Shown here piece after piece: positions 25,548 through 48,209 of a stretch of 64,000 bases of DNA (positions are counted from its first letter, which is position 1; each line of letters starts with the position of its first letter). The stretch is from an uncultured Granulosicoccaceae bacterium (GTDB lineage Bacteria > Pseudomonadota > Gammaproteobacteria > Granulosicoccales > Granulosicoccaceae). The stretch is taken from assembly GCA_937951345.1 (NCBI GenBank), contig CALFCF010000040.1, forward strand, positions 1-64,000. Reading direction: 5' to 3'. The notes beneath the pieces are model-generated. The model was not told the origin of the DNA. It was given only the letters and a program-made list of their open reading frames with translations, and made no database searches. Both the position numbers and the translations under genes were made by a program.

Positions 25548-26867
25548 ATGTCACCTCCAACCAATAGTGATATGCCGGAAACGCTCACAATCCGCAACGC
25601 CATAGACGTAACCGGAAACAAGCAACAGCGGGTTAACCTGACTACCGGTAACGGTCTTATTTCGCGACTGGAAATTGTCAGTGATTCAACCGCTGACTCG
25701 CCCGGTGACACATCTGTAGCAGACGATACGTTAACAATTGATGGCAGCGGGCTGTATTTGTGTCCCGGTTTTATCGACAGTTATGCACGTCTGCGGGATC
25801 CGGGTTTTGAGAAAAAAGGCACCATTGCCAGCGAAGTACGTGCCGCAGCCTGTAATGGCATCACCACTGTTTTGTGCTCTCCCGACACAGATCCGGTTAT
25901 CGATGAATCAGCAACGGTCGAGCTAATTAACCGCAAAGCACGTGACAGTGGCGGCGCGCGCGTGCTGCCGATCGCCGCACTGACACGCAGTCTCGAGGGT
26001 GAGTTGTTATCCGAACTTGCCACGTTAAAAGCGGCCGGCTGCATTGCTGCATCGAATGCTGATCACGCGCTGGTGGATCTGCAGGTTATCCGACGTTGTA
26101 TGGAGTATGCGCGCACCTTCGACATCGTTTTGATCTTTCACCCGGCCGATCGTTGGTTGACCGCGAATGGCGTTGCACATGAGGGTGCAACTGCAGCACG
26201 AATCGGTTTGCCGATGATTCCGGTAGCCGCAGAGACAGTTGCGTTGGCTATGTTGATTGAACTGGCCTGGCAAACAGGAGCGCGCGTACACTTCTCACGC
26301 ATTACCTCGCGACGCGGCGTCGATATGATCCGTCAGGCTCGTGCCGGCGGTCTGCGTATTACGGCTGACACTTCGATAAACCATCTGGTGTATGACGACA
26401 CCATGCTCAGCAGTTTTGACAGTCAATTCCGATCTGTTGCACCGTTTCGTGACAGTGATGATCGTCGGGCACTGCGTGAAGGAATAGTTGACGGCACAAT
26501 CGACAGCATCTGCACCGACCACGCGCCACATGAACGTGACGCCAAACTGGCTCCCTTCCCGTCGGCTGAGCCGGGCATATCCGGCTTTGACACACTACTG
26601 GGTTTGCTGTTGAAGCTGGTTAGTGAAGCGGACATACCAATGACTACACTCATCAAAGCACTGACTGCCAACCCGGCACGTGTGTTTGATCTGAAACAAG
26701 GACACTTACAGGAAGGCGCACCTGCCGATCTGATATTGTTCGACACTGAAGCATCGCACACTGTCGAGACAATGAAATTTTTAAGTGCAGGTCAGAACTC
26801 GCCGCTCAACGGACAGGAACTAAAAGGCAGGATTGTCCACACCATCATTAATGGCTGTCTAGCCTGA
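25548..26867 (+). CDS. pyrC': Dihydroorotase-like protein lacking the HxH metal motif (PyrC'-type)
   Basis: 439 aa, with the amidohydrolase layout of a class I dihydroorotase: the LRDPG segment, HPAD, HFSRITS and TDHAPH. The metal-binding HxH that should precede LRDPG is replaced by S78-Y79-A80, so the binuclear metal site cannot be complete. This matches the inactive PyrC' of Pseudomonas, a structural partner needed to assemble active aspartate carbamoyltransferase. It follows pyrB by 28 bp. A separate active dihydroorotase is expected elsewhere in the genome. Confidence 0.9.
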   Translation: MSPPTNSDMPETLTIRNAIDVTGNKQQRVNLTTGNGLISRLEIVSDSTADSPGDTSVADDTLTIDGSGLYLCPGFIDSYARLRDPGFEKKGTIASEVRAAACNGITTVLCSPDTDPVIDESATVELINRKARDSGGARVLPIAALTRSLEGELLSELATLKAAGCIAASNADHALVDLQVIRRCMEYARTFDIVLIFHPADRWLTANGVAHEGATAARIGLPMIPVAAETVALAMLIELAWQTGARVHFSRITSRRGVDMIRQARAGGLRITADTSINHLVYDDTMLSSFDSQFRSVAPFRDSDDRRALREGIVDGTIDSICTDHAPHERDAKLAPFPSAEPGISGFDTLLGLLLKLVSEADIPMTTLIKALTANPARVFDLKQGHLQEGAPADLILFDTEASHTVETMKFLSAGQNSPLNGQELKGRIVHTIINGCLA

Positions 26868-27003
26868 TCTATTCACGAAGGCGAAAACAGTAGCAATGAA
26901 AACTAAGCAATATCCAGTTAGAAAAGCAGTTTTAGCGTCGCTGCGGGTATTCGCACACTGTTTTCTATTCACCCCCAGTGCCCGTCTGCCGTCGCAGCTC
27001 ACT

Positions 27004-27047
27004 CGATTGAGCTCAACCCGTAGATTTCTACGAATTTCGCTCAATCG
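27004..27047. repeat. Nested inverted repeat (outer 9 bp, inner 6 bp)
   Basis: CGATTGAGC (27004-27012) pairs with GCTCAATCG (27039-27047), and inside it CGTAGA (27019-27024) pairs with TCTACG (27027-27032) across a 2-nt loop. Symmetric 6-nt internal loops separate the two stems. Both arms are perfect. No T-run follows. Confidence 0.7.
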
Positions 27048-27066
27048 TGCGACCTGCTTAGGCAGC

Positions 27067-27108
27067 CAGACTCTGGTGGCGAACCCTTCATGAATAGAGC
27101 AGGCTAGT
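27067..27108 (+). repeat. Dispersed 42-nt repeat, copy 1
   Basis: This sequence recurs at 47317-47358 with two mismatches (positions 27072 and 27105). The central 32 nt (27073-27104) are identical in both copies and include TTCATGAA, an 8-bp palindrome. Both copies are intergenic and in the same orientation. Confidence 0.8.
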
Positions 27109-27355: not shown

Positions 27356-28531
27356 TCAGCCTATCCGGCCGGCACCCGGTTCTGAATCATCTTGTATATC
27401 TTCAAGACTCATCGTACCTGCAATCACATCATCCACTGCTGATGTATCACCGTCAGAGAGTTTGATCTTGAGGCGCAGATCGTTAACCGAGTCAGCGTTA
27501 CGCATGGCTTCTTCGATGGTAATGGCACCTTCCTGGAGCAGATTAAAGAGCGCCAGATCAAACGTTTGCATACCGAGCTCAGTTGATTTGTGCATCAACT
27601 CCTTGATCTCATGTACCTCGCCTTTCATGATCAGGTCAGCCATTAACGGCGTGTTAATTAACACTTCGATTGCCGCTCTGCGCCCCTCACCATCCGGTGT
27701 CGGCAACAGTCGCTGCGATATTACCGCTTTCATGTTCAATGACATGTCGAGCAACAATTGCTTGTGCCGTGCTTCAGGGAAGAAGTTGATAATACGATCC
27801 AGTGCCTGGTTAGTATTGTTCGCGTGCAGCGTCGCCAGACACAGGTGACCGGTTTCAGCAAACGCAATCGCATGCTCCATGGTTTCCTGATCACGTATCT
27901 CACCAATCAGTATGACGTCAGGAGCCTGTCGCAACGTGTTTTTAAGTGCGATGTCGAATGAGTCTGTATCAGTCCCTACTTCCCGTTGTGTGACGATACA
28001 GCCTTTGTGCTGATGAACAAATTCGACCGGATCTTCGATAGTTATGATGTGACCGTTGCTGTTCTCGTTACGGTAGTCGATCATTGCAGCCAGACTGGTT
28101 GATTTACCGGAACCGGTACCACCAACAAAAATTACCAGTCCGCGTTTTGTCATAGCAATCTGATTAAGTACAGTCGGCAGATGCAGGTCTTCAAATTTCG
28201 GAATATCATTTGGAATGATACGAATTACCATTCCAGCACTGCCGCGCTGCACCAGTGCGTTAACACGAAAACGCGAAATATCAGGCAACGCTATTGCAAA
28301 GTTGCATTCTTTTGTCTCACGAAATTCCTTGAAAGATTTAGCGTTCATGATGCTCTGCGCGAGCACGATGGTGTGATCCGCTGTGAGCTTTTTATCCATG
28401 ATCGGCGTGATTTTGCCGTGAATACGCATCGCCGGTGCAGCACCGGCGATCAGAAACAGATCCGAACCACCCTTCTTGAATAGATTGACCAACAGGTCAT
28501 CCATAAATTTCTTGGCTTTCTCAAGATCCAC
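27356..28531 (-). CDS. pilU: Type IV pilus retraction ATPase PilU
   Basis: About 391 aa, of the PilT/PilU secretion-ATPase family. The Walker A motif is GGTGSGKSTSLAAM, the Walker B/Asp box region is IEDPVEFVHQH, and PDVILIGEIRD and the ATLHANN His box follow. The C-terminus is extended and acidic, as in PilU. GTG 28531 is chosen because GAGGA lies seven bases upstream, whereas an in-frame TTG at 28537 is too close to it. PilU assists PilT in pulling pili back. It lies 87 bp after pilT in the same direction. Confidence 0.95.
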   Translation of the reverse strand: MDLEKAKKFMDDLLVNLFKKGGSDLFLIAGAAPAMRIHGKITPIMDKKLTADHTIVLAQSIMNAKSFKEFRETKECNFAIALPDISRFRVNALVQRGSAGMVIRIIPNDIPKFEDLHLPTVLNQIAMTKRGLVIFVGGTGSGKSTSLAAMIDYRNENSNGHIITIEDPVEFVHQHKGCIVTQREVGTDTDSFDIALKNTLRQAPDVILIGEIRDQETMEHAIAFAETGHLCLATLHANNTNQALDRIINFFPEARHKQLLLDMSLNMKAVISQRLLPTPDGEGRRAAIEVLINTPLMADLIMKGEVHEIKELMHKSTELGMQTFDLALFNLLQEGAITIEEAMRNADSVNDLRLKIKLSDGDTSAVDDVIAGTMSLEDIQDDSEPGAGRIG

Positions 28532-28618
28532 AATCAATTCCTCATGTCTTTCTTACATTCAAGGCAAAATGCACTATCAGCACCATTCGTACGGCCTTAG
28601 TTAAACGACCCGGTACGA

Positions 28619-29653
28619 TTAAAGCTGATCCGGGGCCTGTGCTTTCTTACGCGCTTCGTTGACGTCAACCACACCGCGATTCACCAGCTCTTTCAAATTC
28701 TGATCGAGAGTCTGCATGCCGTGCTGTTGCCCGGTTTGAATCGCCGAATACATTTGTGCAACCTTATCTTCACGAATCAGGTTTCGTATCGCGGGAGTAC
28801 CAATCATTATCTCGTGTGCTGCCACACGACCACCACCCTGCTTCTTCATAAGCGTCTGGGAAATAACCGCACGTAATGATTCAGACAACATCGAACGTAC
28901 CATTGGCTTCTCACCTGCAGGGAACACGTCAACAATACGGTCAACGGTTTTTGCAGCAGAACTGGTGTGCAACGTACCGAAAACCAGGTGACCGGTTTCA
29001 GCAGCTGTCAATGCAAGAGAAATTGTTTCCTGGTCACGCATCTCACCAACGAGTATGACGTCAGGATCTTCACGAAGCGCTGAGCGCAATGCATGATCAA
29101 AACCGTGCGTATCACGGTGCACTTCACGCTGATTGATCAGACACTTCTTGGACTCGTGGACAAATTCTATCGGGTCTTCAATAGTCAGTATGTGGCCAAG
29201 CTCATTATTGTTCTTCCAGTCAACCATGCCAGCGAGCGTTGTTGACTTACCCGAACCGGTCGGACCGGTTACCAGAACGATGCCTCGCGGATATGCTGCG
29301 ATGTCTTCGAATATTTTTGGCGCACTGAGTTGCTCAAGCGTCAGAATTTCTGTCGGAATCGTTCGAAATACCGCACCACAACCACGATTCTGATTAAACG
29401 CGTTAACACGATAGCGCGATACACCTGGTATCTCGAACGAAAAGTCAGTTTCAAGATGTTCTTCGAAATCCTTTCGCTGTTTGTCATTCATGATGTCGTA
29501 AACCATTGCCTGCACACCTGATTGATCAAGTGCAGGCACGTTGACGCGACGCATATCACCGTCAACTCGTATCATCGGCGGAAGACCTGCCGAGAGGTGA
29601 ACGTCAGACGCACCGTTTTGCGTTCCGAAAGTAAGTAACTGGGTTATATCCAT
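28619..29653 (-). CDS. pilT: Type IV pilus retraction ATPase PilT
   Basis: 344 aa, exactly the P. aeruginosa length. It starts MDITQLLTFGTQNGASDVHLS; ATG 29653 is chosen over an in-frame start at 29758 that would add 35 residues not found in the family. Walker A is GPTGSGKSTTLAGM; the Asp boxes LTIEDPIEFVH and PDVILVGEMRD and the His box GTLHTSSAAKT follow. AIRNLIREDK near the C-terminus is the conserved retraction motif. PilT hydrolyses ATP at the pilus base to depolymerise the fibre. It is divergent from yggS, as in Pseudomonas. Confidence 0.97.
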   Translation of the reverse strand: MDITQLLTFGTQNGASDVHLSAGLPPMIRVDGDMRRVNVPALDQSGVQAMVYDIMNDKQRKDFEEHLETDFSFEIPGVSRYRVNAFNQNRGCGAVFRTIPTEILTLEQLSAPKIFEDIAAYPRGIVLVTGPTGSGKSTTLAGMVDWKNNNELGHILTIEDPIEFVHESKKCLINQREVHRDTHGFDHALRSALREDPDVILVGEMRDQETISLALTAAETGHLVFGTLHTSSAAKTVDRIVDVFPAGEKPMVRSMLSESLRAVISQTLMKKQGGGRVAAHEIMIGTPAIRNLIREDKVAQMYSAIQTGQQHGMQTLDQNLKELVNRGVVDVNEARKKAQAPDQL

Positions 29654-29936
29654 CTGAATGCCTTTTAAACTAAACGCTAAGCGTATGAATTTTGTATAAA
29701 CTTGTAGGCAAGTTAATGCCGGCAGAAGCACAGTGGCGCGTACGACGCGATTCAGCACTATGCTGTGACTCTATGGGTTTGTCGGCCATTACTGACGAAT
29801 ACTTAACAAGCTCTCCGGTGTACCTCACTCGAGTGAGACTACCGCCCGCAAACCAGCATCAACCCGGTAACAGCGTGTATAAATATGCATCGAAATATGC
29901 ATTAAACTACGAGATCCAAAACACTCCCTAAAATTG

Positions 29937-46681: not shown

Positions 46682-47191
46682 TCAATTGGAAATGGATATA
46701 CCAATGCCAATACTTACCGGCACAGAGTTGTGATACTGCTCGGCGGTCCACAAGTGAATGTCTGATGCATTCATAACCGGGAACACATGTTCTGCCTCAC
46801 CCACGCTACCAGTAGCGGTGCCGGCAAACTCACCGACTGCAGTTACCCGCGTGCCGGTTTTGTAGTCCAGTGTTTCGAGGTAATCAGGTGAGTTGATTAA
46901 TATTCGACCGGTTGAACGCTGGTTGGCGTTGGGACGTTGCAGGTAGTCGAGTGGATAGGTAAGCAATTCCAGTTGCGAGCCCTGTGTGTTATTGCTGCTG
47001 GAGACGACAACGCCGCCCCACATAATGCGTTTCCCCACTTCGATCGCTTCGCTTTGTAACGCATCAAGCGGTGAAACGTCGCGCGTGATTCCGTCGCTCG
47101 AAAAAGGTGGATTGACGCAGGCGCTAAGCAGCAATGAAACACTTACAAGAACGCATCTCAAAACCATGATGCGCGTGCCAGCCTGTTGCAT
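46682..47191 (-). CDS. Slp-family outer-membrane lipoprotein
   Basis: 169 aa from ATG 47191, which has AGGTG five bases upstream. The lipobox is LLLSAC with the lipidated Cys at residue 25. The Slp-type domain follows, with GKRIMWGGVVVSSSNN (about 55-70), LEVLTYPLD-like residues, GRILINSPDYLETLDYKTGTRVTAVGEF and LWTAEQ near the end. Slp proteins are stationary-phase or acid-linked outer-membrane lipoproteins of uncertain role. A second Slp-like gene lies 253 bp upstream, so the two are probably an old duplication. Confidence 0.87.
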   Translation of the reverse strand: MQQAGTRIMVLRCVLVSVSLLLSACVNPPFSSDGITRDVSPLDALQSEAIEVGKRIMWGGVVVSSSNNTQGSQLELLTYPLDYLQRPNANQRSTGRILINSPDYLETLDYKTGTRVTAVGEFAGTATGSVGEAEHVFPVMNASDIHLWTAEQYHNSVPVSIGIGISISN

Positions 47192-47316
47192 GTTACACCT
47201 GCCCGTGTTGATGGTCACAGCGATGGTCGTAGATCCAAGCATAACGATTCAACATCGTAAGAAAAAACGCCGGAGAAAATTCAATCCCGAACAAAGCAAG
47301 GGTTCATTGCTTACAA

Positions 47317-47358
47317 CAGACGCTGGTGGCGAACCCTTCATGAATAGAGCAGGCAAGT
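47317..47358 (+). repeat. Dispersed 42-nt repeat, copy 2
   Basis: Second copy of the sequence at 27067-27108, with mismatches at 47322 and 47355. It lies in the spacer between the two Slp genes. Just upstream, AAGCAA (47294-47299) pairs with TTGCTT (47307-47312), and the loop GGGTTC (47300-47305) is complementary to GAACCC (47331-47336) inside the repeat. Confidence 0.8.
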
Positions 47359-47444
47359 TATACAGTCTTTCTTACAATCATGTGTTGAACAATGTTAAAG
47401 CATGCATTAACCGATCAGTAGTTACGCAGAAATACCGTACAAGT

Positions 47445-48209
47445 CTAAAAACGGCGGCTTACAGCCCTGCGGCTACCCGTCCGGAATCTGCCTAAATGCT
47501 GCCGTCCGCCCCGGTAGAAATATCTGCCGTGCCCGAACGGGTGGTTTCTAAACCCGTACCCGGAGCGATAGCGATGGCCAATGTACCCGTACCTGAACGG
47601 GTGGCCGAAACTTAACGACAACCGGCTACCAAAACGGGATCCGTAGGAAAATCCGATGAACGGCGAATAGTACGACAAACCGTAGTGGCCCTTGTAGCCG
47701 TAGCCACCCCTGCCACGTCGTGCAAACCGCGTCTGTTCGGCAGTCCATAACTGATGCTCGGATACGACGACCCTGGGGTAGTCATAACTTGCTTCACCGA
47801 TCTTGCGTGTGTCACTGCCATCGACAGCACCGGTGATAGTGATTGCCTTGCCCGCACTGTAATCCACAGGATCGAGAAAGCCGGGCACAACTGCCATAAA
47901 ACGACCGCGCGACTGGCGGGTGGTCAGTGGTTGTCCACCACGTGACAGTGGCCGCTCAATCACTTCCACCCAGGTTGAATCGTCGCGGTTTTCAACTGCA
48001 ACCACGGTGCCGCCCCAGCGAACCGTACGGTTTTGATGTAGCTCGGGTTGAATGCGGACTGATTCGACGGTAGGAGGCTGCAAACCGTCATTAGCCGATG
48101 AGCCATCTGACGGTGCTTGTGTCGTCGCGCAACCGCCGGTCAGTAACACGGTTGCCAACACAAAAAATTTGCGCGTTGTTAAAAATCGCTGAATGGAGGA
48201 TGTATTCAT
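47445..48209 (-). CDS. Slp-family lipoprotein with Gly/Arg/Tyr-rich C-terminal tail
   Basis: 254 aa. The signal peptide ends in the lipobox LTGGC (Cys 27). The Slp domain follows (about 50-165), with RTVRWGGTVVAVENRDDSTWVEV, GRFMAVVPGFLDPVDYSAGKAITITG and LWTAEQTR. The last 90 residues are a low-complexity tail rich in Gly, Arg, Tyr, Phe, His and Ser with no acidic residues, unlike Slp1. ATG 48209 is preceded by AAGGAG at a good distance. The tail may be exposed at the surface or periplasm and bind polyanions (inference). Confidence 0.85.
   Translation of the reverse strand: MNTSSIQRFLTTRKFFVLATVLLTGGCATTQAPSDGSSANDGLQPPTVESVRIQPELHQNRTVRWGGTVVAVENRDDSTWVEVIERPLSRGGQPLTTRQSRGRFMAVVPGFLDPVDYSAGKAITITGAVDGSDTRKIGEASYDYPRVVVSEHQLWTAEQTRFARRGRGGYGYKGHYGLSYYSPFIGFSYGSRFGSRLSLSFGHPFRYGYIGHRYRSGYGFRNHPFGHGRYFYRGGRQHLGRFRTGSRRAVSRRF

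Follow-up and report, generated by a model that had tools for sequence, protein, structure and literature searches.

The window analysed here, a 64,000-nt stretch of DNA, carries at its positions 25548–26867 (plus strand) a dihydroorotase-like gene (amidohydrolase, Amidohydro_1), the end of which is overlapped by a complete 241-bp element (26863–27103; best-folding strand, minus). The element runs from CCTGATCTATTCACGAAGG at 26863 to CCTTCATGAATAGAGCAGG at 27103, these ends lying in two 19-bp terminal inverted repeats, the left at 26863–26881 on the plus strand (CCTGATCTATTCACGAAGG; family consensus CCTGCTCTATTCACGAAGG) and the right at 27085–27103 (minus-strand CCTGCTCTATTCATGAAGG). The tetramer CTAG stands on either side (26859–26862 and 27104–27107), and is replaced at other copies by TTAA/TTAA or CTAA/CTAA. 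The right inverted repeat and a long imperfect hairpin arm together occupy 26964–27103 (minus strand) and are matched by a covariance model of 37 pairs (R1). The hairpin at about 26975–27076 belongs to the same element as the 42-nt stretch from 27067 discussed below. The gene ends CTA GCC TGA, its last codons and stop being contained in the left CTAG and the left inverted repeat, and a C-to-A change in that repeat produced the TGA. Two adjoining PilT/PilU-like ATPase genes at 27356–28537 and 28619–29758, named by eye from their translations, have similar sequence (direct repeats D1 and D4).

A preliminary description of this DNA had singled out 27067–27108 (plus strand), which proves to consist of the right end of the element, the right CTAG and one flanking base. 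As stated there, the stretch is near-identical to 47317–47358, in the same orientation and with two mismatched positions (direct-repeat family D3, 95%). The second site is a truncated copy that holds only the last 37 nt (47317–47353, plus strand; element positions 205–241), the left part being absent, and is followed by CAAG (47354–47357) where CTAG was expected, which we take as a decayed duplication. The strong hairpins reported beside each copy were accordingly found at the first, where the hairpin is part of the element, and not at the second, a truncated right end without one. The truncated copy is flanked by two adjoining Slp-family outer membrane lipoprotein genes (within 46682–48209), possibly tandem duplicates. 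Among the identities proposed for the 42 nt, the end of a small mobile element agrees with what lies at 27067: the stretch is very probably the right end of a 241-bp non-autonomous DNA transposon (MITE).

The host falls in or near Granulosicoccaceae (Gammaproteobacteria, Chromatiales), the name attached to congeneric loci. In the organism's own assembly (G000; 4.49 Mb, 115 contigs), a 30-mer core of the right end was recovered 105 times at up to three mismatches (55 of the listed places exact) and never with a reversed-pattern control, which excludes chance, already judged very unlikely in the preliminary description; left ends numbered 97. Many contigs begin or stop within a copy, breaking the assembly, and the exact copy number is therefore unreadable from it. 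A local duplication between the two window sites would account for two copies within one window, 20 kb apart, but given about 100 copies genome-wide, unrelated flanks and the truncation of one copy, it can practically be dismissed. The preliminary description had named, as grounds against a repeat family, a core limited to two copies and missing from relatives; the core is instead present about 100 times, and relatives carry the element. The modal spacing between left and right ends was 249 bp including the CTAG on both sides, giving the 241-bp unit, and the 61 full copies had a mean pairwise identity of 94.7% and differed on average by 3.1% from their consensus, which fits spread from similar source copies.

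Beyond this genome, a scan of a genome contig collection gave no match to the exact core outside the organism's own genome. Of the 48 genomes from the family (Granulosicoccaceae), 17 were matched by R1, which models the long arm, including every genome of one genus and none of another; among 369 genomes from the class (Gammaproteobacteria), a further 13 were matched. G169 is a complete 2.96-Mb genome from another family with about 200 copies of a distant relative and 394 matches to the end sequence. Element length is near-constant, mostly 235–246 bp. Relatives in G001, G003, G023, G027 and G031 have different letters and CTAG flanks; their outer inverted repeats also differ (CCCGCTTTA, CCGGAACAA, CCTGCATTA), with the changes compensated at both ends in intact copies. 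A relaxed end pattern, scanned against the same contigs, matched other Granulosicoccaceae and gave single matches in Parvularculaceae and Rhodospirillaceae, the latter two having no element context and being taken as chance. Plasmid and phage collections held no match to the G169 copy. REP-like GTAGGAGCGGCCTCCAGGCCGCGA palindromes occur in some long elements of G169 (306–464 bp) and are scattered through other parts of the stretches of that genome that were read.

The flanking tetramers were compared in both genomes. In G000, identical 4-mers flanked 40 of the 60 full copies having both flanks (shuffle mean 35.4, p 0.007). Copies flanked by TTAA/TTAA or CTAA/CTAA were not, as a group, mutual closest relatives, which argues against a subfamily carrying those letters. 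In G169, where half of the genome was covered, 32 of 49 full-size copies had identical flanks (shuffle mean 16.2, maximum of 5000 shuffles 24), the matched tetramers being CTAG, CTAA, TTAG, TTAA, CTAT and TGAA; this test is independent of the one in G000 and stronger. Because the flanking 4-mers match even when they are TTAA or CTAA, CTAG, the commonest of them, is read as a 4-bp YTAR-type target duplication, YTAR being a known target duplication motif of IS5 (PMC10359306). CTAG could instead be part of the element, since it is self-complementary, lengthens the stem and stays constant while the outer inverted repeat varies between subfamilies. The pairs CTAA/CTAA, TTAG/TTAG, CTAT/CTAT and TGAA/TGAA are, however, direct and not inverted matches, several of them recurring in G169, and make that assignment very improbable. 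On these flanks and ends, the element is very probably a MITE with YTAR duplication.

The target motif also bears on the position of the element at the end of the dihydroorotase-like gene. YTAR includes a TAA or TAG stop. Insertion into a stop codon that restores the stop would explain why many open reading frames of G000 finish precisely at the border of an element. Insertion at a gene end can thus duplicate the TAR stop within YTAR and cause little harm. Orthologs of the dihydroorotase-like gene in G001 and G002 have their own stop and no element there, the absence at the orthologous gene end in G002 being a gene-end comparison without a clean nucleotide-level empty site.

Further size classes of 37, 43, 120 and 385 bp were seen in G000. 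In the minimal 37- and 43-bp derivatives (at L004, L031, L114 and L138; the 37-bp class at seven places in the genome), fusion of the two inverted repeats has produced a near-perfect hairpin, with CTAG flanks in most copies seen. One locus (L036/L037, G000:C9:147162-147292) is a CTAG-flanked palindrome of two facing left ends, and two left-end copies (L161 and L049) break off at the long-arm tip (element position 159–161) and pass directly or almost directly into CTAG, which may reflect hairpin-tip breakage or half-element insertion. A second MITE, 144 bp long and IS5-like (GGAACCTCTGATTTATT...AATAAATCAGAGGTTCC), is inserted at one CTAR within several of the 241-bp elements, in one orientation at L103, L126, L153, L155, L163 and L033 and in the other at L098, L149, L160 and L167, with flanking CTAA or CTAG duplications; this is repeated insertion at one hot spot within the 241-bp element. 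The 385-bp composite has CTAG flanks at different sites and has therefore moved as a unit.

With 19-bp terminal inverted repeats, a 4-bp YTAR duplication, a length of 241 bp, no gene inside and about 100 copies, the family has the features of a MITE, and of the earlier proposal of a REP/MITE-like family it is the MITE half that stands. Neither the G000 loci that were read nor 1.52 Mb of G169 showed a transposase gene between paired ends, and since no such gene with these ends was found, the family is taken to be moved in trans. A DDE transposase with IS5-type target choice would, now or formerly, cut and paste the element; judged by the target motif alone, we put the chance that the putative mobiliser is of IS5 type at about even. 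Several candidates were considered and set aside: the two DDE_Tnp_1 genes of G000 are without such ends, and L170, the single DUF772/DDE_Tnp_1 element whose ends are visible, carries different ones (CAGGGCCGACTATT); IS1380 and IS701 parents were rejected on finding no match to PF13701 or PF13546 in G000; and in G169 inverted repeats enclose a 1665-bp interval that looked like an autonomous copy but, by eye, seems to hold an ordinary YaeQ-type host gene with a copy on each side. Membership of a REP/RAYT system was likewise rejected, the unit being 241 bp long with target duplications, and the lone Y1_Tnp match in G000 being decayed, with three internal stops. The related suggestion that a Y1/HUH transposase (RAYT or IS200/IS605-type) moves the element as single-stranded DNA, the strand-biased fold being the recognised hairpin, draws on the resemblance of strand-specific hairpins with a foot tetranucleotide to REP/RAYT systems and on the strand bias described below; yet the 4-bp target duplications covary on both sides, which is unexpected for Y1 elements, and the sole Y1_Tnp match is the interrupted one, so that we consider this route quite improbable.

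The G000 element folds over its full length (minus strand −129.5 kcal/mol, z −11; plus strand −99, z −8) into a Y, in which the inverted repeats pair as a stem that carries one short and one long hairpin arm. Double changes were present in 24 of the 37 pairs among 17 aligned arms; across 81 arms, double compensatory changes affected 33 of the 37, with 94.3% of cells paired, a covariation of 0.503 against 0.04–0.11 for slid structures, and none of 500 shuffles reaching any of the measures. Because the model guided the alignment of the 81 arms and the minus strand served to derive the structure, these figures lean towards that structure, which we trust on account of the large gap to the slid controls. 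Internal loops (UAA/GAC and GAA/UGA type) hold their positions and remain unpaired, whereas the stems covary. That relatives keep the folded shape despite changed letters suggests that the fold itself does something, and the fold is likely to be under selection. Searches of Rfam 15 gave no match above the gathering score, the sub-threshold matches being microRNA hairpins only (26.4 bits against 92). As regards the conserved RNA motif that the preliminary description had also entertained, the conserved, covarying secondary structure of the body supports the motif, and an RNA role for it is plausible from the modelled folds.

When both strands were folded, the same strand was the more stable in 78 of 80 elements. 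In a self-alignment of the arms that assumed no G·U pairing, 66 of the 80 had more G·U (G·T) than A·C on the minus strand and five the reverse; the bias was strong in G000, in G001 and in a third genus, G169 showed a weak one (4.9 against 3.9 per arm) and other families a mixed picture, and a strand-biased C-to-T change in the palindrome could add to it. Between co-oriented genes, the structured strand was antisense in 47 of 62 Granulosicoccaceae copies (p 6e-5; simple ORF calls, robust to the ORF cut-off), an orientation bias that we offer as a lead only since it rests on those simple calls, while G169 had no such bias (6 against 6). No promoter-like site was found within the element. Taken together, the strand data fit selection, at least in Granulosicoccaceae, on the minus strand as a single-stranded nucleic acid, for which RNA is the simplest candidate.

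The mismatches in Granulosicoccaceae favour G·U on the minus strand, which argues that the fold there is probably kept as a minus-strand RNA; we regard the case for selection acting on RNA as evenly balanced. An ordinary MITE, whose fold would be a by-product of palindromic DNA, template switching or gene conversion keeping the repeats alike, with no RNA role, is a serious possibility that falls somewhat short of an even chance. Palindromes are common in MITEs and REPs, the G·U bias is weak outside Granulosicoccaceae, and gene-relative orientation in G169 is unbiased, all of which would suit such an element; correction between the arms would, however, erase the internal loops that stay unpaired and fixed while the stems covary, and both the strong excess of G·U over A·C in Granulosicoccaceae and the greater stability of one strand in nearly all elements speak against it. 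Across many genera the long arm has retained its pairs through compensatory changes; if selection does act on RNA, a folded transcript or folded single strand probably helps the element to persist or move. The broadest version, in which a mobile family common across Gammaproteobacteria has a functional strand-specific RNA body, so that an RNA fold and not a protein is its conserved 'gene', appears unlikely. Were it true, the element would spread as DNA, with YTAR duplication, and its minus-strand RNA would take part in moving or maintaining it, perhaps by attaching to the transposase or bringing it in, or by protecting the host transcript.

MITE interiors are usually seen as leftovers of insertion sequences that can drift without constraint. 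In this family, compensatory changes over many genera preserve a fold of the interior at near-constant length, and even the outer inverted repeats drift in step, so that the family makes it testable whether, and why, a bacterial MITE carries a selected RNA. With about 200 copies in one genome of 2.96 Mb, it is also a sizeable genome component, and one without a name in Rfam. A literature search for the element end sequences found none, and no described family combining this size, the YTAR duplication and a cross-family covarying fold was found in the literature, where a prior description may nonetheless exist.

Among known systems, the IS5-group insertion sequences share the YTAR target duplication (PMC10359306); unlike them, the element has no transposase inside, and no insertion sequence with these terminal repeats was found. 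REP/BIME sequences with RAYT are likewise palindromes that lie between genes in high copy number and have a tetranucleotide at their foot, whereas the present family is a full unit with inverted repeats and a target duplication, and no intact RAYT was found in G000. ERIC/RU-1 and YPAL/RU-2 of enterobacteria (PMC2759123) resemble it as imperfect palindromes of fixed length that form stable stem-loops, occur in several genera and are mostly intergenic. By their published description they measure 127 and 168 bp and have TA duplications, whereas the elements described here are mostly 235–246 bp with a 4-bp YTAR duplication. QMITE1 and QMITE2 of Coxiella burnetii (PMC5896051; review PMC10969869) are bacterial MITEs with stable hairpin transcripts, some copies of which yield small RNAs, and like the present family they are small and gene-free, with terminal inverted repeats, direct repeats and tens of copies. 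Their direct repeats are of variable sequence (2–3 nt in QMITE1, 7–11 nt in QMITE2), and QMITE1 is reported to be unique to Coxiella (PMC5896051; PMC10969869), whereas the family described here has a YTAR duplication and a covarying fold common to many gammaproteobacterial families.
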